NCBI RefSeq assembly: GCF_000159955.1
Contig: NZ_GG695974.1
Location: 68,323 to 79,943 of the forward strand
Direction of reading: 5' to 3'
From: Paenibacillus sp. oral taxon 786 str. D14
Lineage (GTDB): Bacteria; Bacillota; Bacilli; Paenibacillales; Paenibacillaceae
Length of the DNA stretch: 11,621 nt
The position numbers and the translations under genes were made by a program. This document shows positions 928 to 11,621 of the stretch, one piece after another; position 1 is the first letter of the stretch; every line of letters begins with the position of its first letter. The notes under the pieces were generated by a model. It was not told where the DNA came from, ran no database searches, and saw nothing but the letters and a program-made list of their open reading frames with translations.

Positions 928-1110
928 TAACGCTTGCCAGAAAGCTTATTGAGGCGAAAAACACTAGATTTTTTTTCTAACGCTGACCAGCGTGCTTATT
1001 TGAGTTGGGAGCCGCCTTTTTCGGGAGAAAACTCCGAAATAAGCTCTCCCATAAGCGTTACAAGTTGCACGCTCCGATTTTAGCGCAAATAGCGTCTAAC
1101 CCAAGCGTTA
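928..1110. repeat. Mirror-symmetric intergenic repeat element, copy 1 (GC type)
   Basis: Four 23-base units follow the pattern TAACGC...GCTTATT. Two are direct (928-950 and 978-1000) and two are inverted (1038-1060 and 1088-1110; the last ends GCTATT). Unit starts are exactly 50 bases apart within each pair, and the centre between the pairs is 37 bases. The outermost units share nine complementary bases (TAACGCTTG against CAAGCGTTA). The inner units share GCTTATTT against AAATAAGC. Most units can also fold on themselves through TAA/TTA ends and an inner GC or GCT against GC or AGC, with the C after TAA unpaired. I know no named family for this element. Confidence 0.85.
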
Positions 1111-6837: not shown

Positions 6838-7024
6838 TAACTGGAAAAAGTAATGTTAATTTCGGGGAATCGGCGGGATTTTGTCAATTTAGCTGGAAAT
6901 TCTGCTGTTATTTTAATCATTTGATTGGATCTATAGAGTTTTGGTCCAAATTAACAGTAACTTTTACATCTAATTGGTTTCAAATGCGGGAGATTGGCGA
7001 AATTAAAGGTACTTTTTACAGTTA
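6838..7024. repeat. Mirror-symmetric intergenic repeat element, copy 2 (AT type)
   Basis: Four 23-base units are present. Two are direct (6838-6860 and 6890-6912; pattern TAACTGGAAA...GTTAAT or GTTATT) and two inverted (6950-6972 and 7002-7024; on the minus strand TAGATGTAAAA...GTTAAT and TAACTGTAAAA...TTTAAT). Starts are 52 bases apart in both pairs. The central gap is 37 bases, the same as in the element at 928-1110. Total length is 187 bases against 183. Sequence identity to the first element is largely limited to the TAAC and TTA(A)T ends, so the shared geometry is the main argument for kinship. Confidence 0.75.
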
Positions 7025-7117: not shown

Positions 7118-7137
7118 GCGTTAGAGGGACATTGTTC

Positions 7138-7150
7138 AAAAACGAACATT
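7138..7150 (+). promoter_or_regulatory. PurBox 1 (PurR binding site)
   Basis: AAAAACGAACATT matches the Bacillus PurR consensus AWWWCCGAACWWT at all positions but one (A for the first C). With the inverted box at 7169-7181 it forms the paired operator expected for the purine repressor PurR, whose release is controlled by PRPP. Confidence 0.8.
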
Positions 7151-7168
7151 CGGATTTTACATTCTATT

Positions 7169-7181
7169 AATGTTCGGATTT
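7169..7181 (-). promoter_or_regulatory. PurBox 2 (PurR binding site, inverted)
   Basis: Read on the minus strand this is AAATCCGAACATT, a perfect match to AWWWCCGAACWWT. It lies 18 bases from PurBox 1 in opposite orientation and ends 3 bases before the -35 hexamer, the standard placement for PurR control. Confidence 0.88.
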
Positions 7182-7184
7182 GAG

Positions 7185-7214: not shown

Positions 7215-7251
7215 AGGAGAGGAAAGGCGGCTCGCCGCCGAACATCATAAT

Positions 7252-7318
7252 CTCGTATAATGCCGGGAATAGGGCCCGGAAGTTTCTACCCGAGAACCGT
7301 AAATTTTCGGACTACGAG
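7252..7318 (+). ncRNA. Purine riboswitch aptamer, guanine/hypoxanthine type
   Basis: The three-way junction is complete. P1 pairs CTCGTA (7252-7257) with TACGAG (7313-7318). P2 is the CCGGG/CCCGG hairpin starting at about 7263, with its loop. J2/3 carries the conserved TTTCTACC (7283-7290). P3 pairs CGAGAA with TTTTCG around CCGTAAA. J3/1 is ACTA. The specificity base is C (7312), which pairs with guanine or hypoxanthine; an adenine switch has U there. It is linked to a terminator at 7337-7367, so ligand binding is expected to switch purEKBC expression off. Confidence 0.95.
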
Positions 7319-7336
7319 CGAATACGTGATGAAGGT

Positions 7337-11534: not shown

Positions 11535-11621
11535 TAACGGACCACAGGGCCCTTATTGATCCAGATATATGGGGAAGACTGACGTAACGGACCGAGGAGC
11601 CCTTATTTTACCGGGGCGGCC
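11535..11621. repeat. Start of a third mirror repeat element (GGACC type), cut by the window end
   Basis: Two direct 23-base units, TAACGGACC...GCCCTTATT, lie at 11535-11557 and 11585-11607. The spacing is 50 bases, the same as in the element at 928-1110. Their TAACGG and CCCTTA ends are complementary apart from one C-C mismatch. Fourteen bases of the central segment follow before the window ends. The two inverted units expected from the other elements would lie outside. It begins 28 bases after the purC stop. Confidence 0.75.

Follow-up and report, generated by a model that had tools for sequence, protein, structure and literature searches.

Four-Unit Elements in the Window

The window, i.e., the whole stretch of 11,621 nucleotides of Paenibacillus sp. 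oral taxon 786 str. D14 that was analysed, contains an array of four related 23-bp units at 6838-7024, a sister element at 928-1110 and half of a third element after purC. The layout of the first array, as proposed in an earlier note on this DNA, was confirmed: the units start at 6838, 6890, 6950 and 7002, two direct and two inverted at a spacing of 52, around a 37-bp centre, for a total of 187 bp vs 183 bp in the sister element. The note's observation that TAAC ends persist is exact for part of the array and fails for units 2 and 3, which start TAGC and TAGA.

Element at 6838-7024
6838..6860, + strand, unit 1, TAACTGGAAAAAGTAATGTTAAT
6861..6889, spacer 1, 29 bp
6890..6912, + strand, unit 2, direct relative to unit 1 (+52)
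6913..6949, centre, 37 bp
6950..6972, - strand, unit 3, inverted
6973..7001, spacer 3, 29 bp
7002..7024, - strand, unit 4, inverted (+52 from unit 3)
Class I sister element (50/60/50)
928..950, + strand, unit 1
978..1000, + strand, unit 2
1038..1060, - strand, unit 3
1088..1110, - strand, unit 4
Third element after purC, cut by the window end
11535..11557, + strand, unit 1
11585..11607, + strand, unit 2 (+50)

The 52/60/52 geometry and 23-bp units of the 6838 element were found both by a repeat search and by a motif-free scan; the former returns direct pairs at a spacing of 52 and outer arms (6838-6864/6998-7024) that are complementary at 85%. Outer inverted repeats were considered with arms at 6793-6812/7049-7068, but since their score of 23 equals the 95th percentile of the control and a 14-bp direct repeat extends into the right arm, none is claimed. 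The third element is of the TAACGGACC type with a spacing of 50, and the half of it inside the window lies directly 3' of purC, apparently within the pur operon. A lone TAACGCTTGTCC unit lies at 1177-1199, 3' of the 928 element and near a T-rich terminator-like stretch, and four other loci (L001, L002, L005 and L006) have a similar unit. Upstream of purE lies a purine riboswitch (RF00167, 78.8 bits, 7233-7334), and an inverted pair at 7136-7183 has what we take to be a resemblance to PurR boxes.

Recurrence of the Geometry

We refer to such four-unit elements as "quads", a name of our own. The motif-free scan takes four 23-mers, two of them direct and two inverted, and adds up their six pairwise identities; its control reads the inverted units mirror-wise. 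The 6838 element scores 99 and the 928 element 96; scores of at least 84 occur at 30 places (orthologous copies counted separately) vs 0 in the mirror control, over 511,196 bp from 27 sources, namely the window and 26 related loci of relatives with a gene for the response regulator found immediately upstream, the closest being P. barengoltzii (96%). Quads above the same threshold number 13 in 381,578 bp of genome G001, 22 in 400,000 bp of P. oralis (G003) and 16 in 400,000 bp of G005, vs 0, 1 and 3 in the mirror control; the stretches of G001 and G003, like those of G006, G014 and P. macerans (G017), were picked from contigs or places with pattern matches, and the choice of loci L001-L023 and of the first 400 kb of G005 contig C1 took no account of such matches.

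The pattern in question is a strict one, two direct units of class I/II type at a spacing of 49-52, with the backwards pattern as its control. A recurrence test of this kind had been set beforehand, and in the relatives it came out in favour of recurrence, P. barengoltzii having 57 matches vs 0 for the backwards pattern. Five genomes have 57, 98, 173, 3 and 48 matches (backwards 0, 3, 0, 0 and 0), with the proviso that matches can arise on both strands for each dyad unit and that a full quad can yield two. In the genus to which P. oralis belongs there are 1184 matches vs 6 backwards, present in 22 of 40 genomes, and the 18 genomes that have no match could carry other unit sequences, to which the strict pattern is blind. 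Of ten genomes with named loci, seven of which are already among the 40, six have matches, including Fontibacillus with 10; Caryophanon has no strict-pattern match.

When spacing was left free (direct 30-80 bp, inner 25-125 bp) over 1,646,033 bp, a sample partly taken from contigs with pattern matches, 78 places were found vs 20 in the control, or 70 vs 10 after a GC filter. Direct spacings of 50-52 bp make up 132 of 140, vs 0 of 20 in the control. The inner dyad centres are 61-63 bp apart in 53 of 70 places and 69-72 bp apart in 10, with none at 64-68 bp and 7 elsewhere; the two clusters differ by about one helical turn, a figure that is based on these two clusters and is not a phasing test. 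The suggestions that selection acts on shape or spacing, and that the two elements of the window are kin by geometry, are thus supported by the mirror, backwards-pattern and free-spacing scans. A search of the literature on Paenibacillus repeats (mostly open-access papers, no preprints) gave no description of the family in titles or abstract starts among the matches listed.

Classes of Quads

Our catalogue holds 175 distinct quads from 206 places; it excludes loci L024-L026 and L117-L132, the latter having been scanned separately, and includes at least two false positives in GC-rich coding sequence (L112, L099) and a third within a 407-aa ORF (L095). A called ORF is overlapped by 28 of the 175, and 25 of these ORFs are of 177 aa or less. 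The units are imperfect dyads of 21-23 bp spaced 50-52 bp apart, with inner dyads ~62 or ~72 bp from each other, and few quads fall outside three classes. Class I (50/60/50) comprises the TAACGGAC, TAACGGAA, TAACGCTT, TAACGGTTG and TAACGAAAC types, class II (51/70/51) the TAGCGG.. type, and class III (51-52/60/51-52) the TAACTGGAAA, TAACGGTAAA, TGCAAAAGTGCA and other types. In P. phocaensis an array of four TAACGGAA quads occupies ~1.5 kb (L040:1391-2847). Quads lie in 17 divergent vs 51 convergent contexts, as compared with 89 vs 79 for all gaps of at least 190 bp. One class II element that was queried against phage and plasmid records had no match in either.

The element at 6838-7024 is a class III member of this dispersed family of Paenibacillus elements. 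In P. barengoltzii six more quads of class III geometry are catalogued in addition to the orthologue of the 6838 element, to which the units are 0.92 and the spacers and middle 0.79 identical. By reading of the sequences, the element is missing from the orthologous place in L002 and L004-L006, and a remnant is present in L003.

Conservation in Place and Whole-Copy Dispersal

At two orthologous sites the half-sites of the units are conserved. Among seven orthologues of the 928 element (two labelled P. timonensis), identity is 0.94 in half-sites, 0.79 in unit centres, 0.70 in spacers, 0.65 in the middle and 0.47-0.48 in the flanks, the flank identities throughout being from forced global alignment and including chance identity. 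For the purC element the corresponding values in three genomes are 0.96, 0.91, 0.74, 0.51 and 0.49-0.54, and the same order is kept when P. phocaensis is added (0.91, 0.85, 0.61, 0.44 and 0.45-0.47). The purC element of P. phocaensis has TAACGGAA units (unit 3 being TAATGGAA) where its three relatives have TAACGGAC, such that all four units read GGAA in the former and GGAC in the latter, a difference that may alternatively have its source in replacement by another quad copy. Homogenisation within elements, one of two explanations that the earlier note had offered for the resemblance among units, fits poorly, given that half-sites are kept and unit centres differ.

In all eight groups analysed, the two halves of a family, left and right, are associated with each other more strongly than in any of five shuffles. 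The halves are distinct and yet are kept together, from which it follows that whole elements were copied.

Pairing Between the Arms

Mean identities between units are 0.745 (units 1-2), 0.755 (3-4), 0.708 (1-4), 0.727 (2-3), 0.715 (1-3) and 0.719 (2-4), i.e., nearly the same for every pair. Compensation was tested in copies of exact geometry, 74 of class I and 40 of class II. The latter are oriented copies of one family, and the covariation between paired arms that a structured element had been expected to display is not in excess among them: departures in nested arms are compensated in 20 of 688 cases, as in shuffles (0.029), in crossed arms in 11 of 673 (shuffled 0.021) and within units in 9 of 433 (shuffled 0.036). 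Eleven copies from G014 give 12/95 nested and 9/81 crossed, both at the shuffled level, and 2/41 within units (z 2.5), and twenty TAACGCTT copies give 9/259 nested and 17/310 crossed, both under the shuffled level. Across the 74 class I copies, which mix several families, nested agreement is 0.307 (shuffled 0.159) and crossed agreement 0.311 (shuffled 0.145); the near equality of the two indicates that the four units share one recognition sequence rather than being base-paired partners. Within-unit compensation in this mixed set (92/1058 = 0.087; shuffled 0.056, z 5.6) fits the expectation for dyads, but also that for hairpins.

Orientation with Respect to Replication

The two halves of class II quads differ, so that their orientation can be read. 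On the 7.57-Mb chromosome of P. oralis, with dnaA at 1,852,341 and the terminus set half-way from dnaA at 5.64 Mb, 32 of 39 matched halves follow the fork (p 7e-5), or 31 of 39 if a locus at 5.63 Mb that has the opposite skew is reassigned. GC skew switches sign at dnaA and just before 5.64 Mb, and the class II copies reverse their orientation at dnaA and around 5.6-5.7 Mb. With respect to genes the same class is 5 co- and 6 anti-oriented (11 tandem contexts not flagged as intra-ORF), and orientation with transcription was rejected over eight groups as well (30 same, 21 opposite). Relative to local GC skew, the counts are 26:6 for class II in P. oralis, 10:2 for class II in P. macerans (where the copies may be common to P. 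oralis), 11:1 for GGA and 10:4 for GCTT quads in G001, 10:6 in G006, 9:7 in G014, 7:4 for GGAC, 6:2 for GGTTG and 3:1 for class II in G005; three of the nine groups have an uncorrected p below 0.05. The polarity of class II could stem from replication-linked dispersal, from a polar function or from a transcription unit of the element's own.

Inverted Ends and the Search for a Partner

In three genomes, G006, P. oralis and P. macerans, some quads are carried inside larger MITE-type elements, presumably ISL3-like, that have inverted ends of ~27 bp and duplications of 8 bp. The ends, with one mismatch allowed, match 18 times in G006, 50 in P. oralis and 28 in P. macerans, and 0 times in G001, G014 and G005, though quads abound there. 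For five of 16 cases in G006 the borders were read by eye, and the 8-bp duplication is perfect in one, near-perfect in two and absent in two. Among 30 loci fetched by means of the inverted ends, 17 have paired ends, and four of these (L254, L257, L258 and L265) a perfect 8-bp duplication. A quad lies between the ends in L252, L254, L276 and the single element of L253/L274; L254, the only one of the four with a perfect duplication to hold a quad, measures 518 bp and has a TAACGGTTG quad nested in a broken TAACGGAC quad. Ten MITEs of 212-220 bp with the same ends have no quad (L250, L251, L256-L258, L260, L271, L275, L277 and L279), and the seven of them that were read have other inverted pairs inside, e.g., TTTGCACGATTATCCC. 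Upstream of purE in P. macerans there is an insertion of ~380 bp that holds a quad and is absent from P. oralis; its 8-bp flanks differ at one base, and the right flank is a good match to P. oralis and the left flank matches for only ~10 bp.

Away from these elements the borders are less distinct. The profile and border counts are limited to quads with a clear TA register (149 in one count, 134 outside G006 in another, and 194 of 232 in two more, one of which also needed flank). Pooled by class, conservation drops ~2-4 bp beyond the outer TA, and in P. oralis and P. macerans the class II copies have longer common flanks, the right one resembling a ~27-bp inverted end. The class II alignment took 60 of 64 copies. 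A general target duplication was not clear in the 134 quads outside G006 (top z 3.2 among 576 combinations), and left-right flank similarity in 172 quads is 17.1 vs 16.5 in the control.

An autonomous partner was not found among Y1 transposases (G001, G002), ISL3 transposases (six genomes) or genes flanked by half-quads (2,403,709 bp). The ISL3 candidate was rejected after a whole-genome search that returned fragments only, in two of the six genomes. Half-quads of one class flank no gene in the 2,403,709 bp apart from two cases: an IS110-family element (PF01548; L102:6203-7948), its gene read as two ORFs, whose insertion separates unit 1 of a class III quad from unit 2, and a 976-bp gap in L207 with an ORF that by reading is methyltransferase-like. 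Shorter gaps between halves of different classes occur in L009, L010 and L112.

Resemblance to Known Systems and Alternative Explanations

In Sleeping Beauty (IR/DR), IS21 and Tn7, each transposon end has two directly repeated transposase sites. The order of sites in quads, direct-direct-inverted-inverted, is the one found in such four-site transposon ends, but the inside of a quad is only ~37 or ~47 bp and has neither a gene nor a known transposase. The res sites of serine resolvases likewise have several imperfect dyads ~50 bp apart, but are neither arranged as a four-site inverted array nor dispersed as quads are. REP, BIME and REPIN sequences share with quads that they are short intergenic palindromic repeats in many copies, with tandem clusters and several sequence classes per genome; the fixed spacing of four units sets quads apart.

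That quads form a structured RNA or cruciform, by pairing of unit 1 with unit 4 and of unit 2 with unit 3, strikes us as improbable. The fold z-scores of the 6838 and 928 elements (-3.44 and -2.85) speak for it, though they would be expected of inverted units anyway, as does an excess of sense-strand G-U over A-C in arms 1-4 and 2-3 of 70 elements in tandem contexts (194 vs 150). However, crossed arms have the same excess (207 vs 145) and equal agreement, compensation within families is at or under the shuffled level, orientation to neighbouring genes is the mixed one given above, and quads have no Rfam match above the gathering score: a scan of the window at E up to 1 returned the purine riboswitch alone, and in 15 loci that hold quads the matches were two FMN riboswitches and two tRNAs. 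The data, with no excess of arm compensation and with crossed arms that agree as well as nested ones, do not support a folded RNA or a cruciform, and a long-hairpin RNA was rejected on the unit identities, the G-U vs A-C counts and the compensation tests. Concerted evolution in which no binding protein takes part, driven by template switching or by gene conversion at inverted repeats, would account for the resemblance of units inside an element and for the replication polarity of class II; it is nevertheless very improbable in our estimation, because units that share half-sites have differing centres and arms able to pair are no more identical than others.

That polarity bears on two further explanations. 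As described in PMC3116915 and PMC8266576, REPINs form inverted doublets whose hairpins show compensating changes, and GTAG is a feature of REPs; lagging-strand targeting is described in PMC6006769. Quads might similarly consist of units that act as single-stranded hairpins and are moved by a Y1 transposase of the IS200/RAYT type on the lagging-strand template, a reading that draws on the dyad units, high copy number and arrays, on the fork orientation of P. oralis class II (32/39) and the local skew of P. macerans class II and G001 GGA quads, and on IS200-type genes close to TGCA-type quads in P. faecis. We regard it as unlikely, if by no means negligible: Y1_Tnp matches are absent from G001 and G002, two high-copy genomes with 57 and 98 pattern matches, GTAG lies near 5 of 776 units where ~27 are expected by chance, arm compensation is not in excess and orientation is not significant in six of nine groups. 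Y1 matches occur in two of four genomes (two in G003 and 14, several IS200-type by inspection, in G005), and identity with RAYT/REP was rejected on their absence from the two quad-rich ones. The TGCA-type quads of P. faecis lie ~50-190 bp from IS200-type copies (L121:913-1100, L126:920-1110, L127:2082-2270), and the similarity between L121 and L126 extends to the IS border. The other explanation, to which we give rather little credence, is that quads are a set of chromosomal sites used by the host in nucleoid organisation, segregation or replication, class II having a polarity along each replichore. Half-sites retained in place while flanks diverge, the flips of class II orientation at dnaA and near 5.6-5.7 Mb and the scarcity of divergent contexts would suit it; several families have no significant orientation bias, however, and the strict pattern is absent from 18 of 40 genomes, though other unit sequences escape it.

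A Proposed Explanation

The geometry, the whole-copy dispersal, the half-site conservation at two orthologous sites, the lack of excess covariation between arms and, in three genomes, the presence of some copies within elements that have inverted ends and 8-bp duplications are observations. The retention of spacing while site sequences change together points to a putative DNA-binding partner, not to folded RNA. The explanation that we propose, and on which we are evenly divided, is that a quad is a DNA element, either mobile in a non-autonomous way or partly domesticated, that offers four dimer sites to a putative protein. A dimer of this putative sequence-specific protein would bind each dyad in duplex form, and four dimers, ~five to seven turns apart, would build one complex, much as at those transposon ends that have a pair of transposase sites each; a quad would be, or derive from, a non-autonomous mobile element. 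Unit sequence would track shifts in the specificity of the protein, with the consequence that all four units within an element change in step. In favour of this explanation are the locked geometry, the two clusters of inner distance, the near-equal likeness of all unit pairs with no excess of arm compensation, the conserved half-sites of the 928 orthologues, the changed units of the purC element in P. phocaensis, the association of left and right halves and the quad-bearing insertion of P. macerans. Against it stand a partner protein that was not found, the lack of a general target duplication or outer inverted repeat, the inverted ends that were not found in three of six genomes, and the replication bias of class II, which a duplex-DNA model does not predict.

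More tentatively, and with the balance somewhat against it, quads may form a group-wide superfamily in which the layout of four dimer sites is conserved and the recognition sequence turns over with a putative, fast-changing DNA-binding partner, at least one class being laid out along the direction of replication. This last feature suggests that the partner may have a role at the replication fork or in organising the chromosome.

For small repeats of bacteria, sequence is usually the defining trait; for the quad family it is geometry. Several unit sequences in the same genome share one layout, and a search with a single consensus misses the other families. Quads offer a direct route to the putative DNA-binding partner and a case in which binding sites and their binder may change jointly within a genus.
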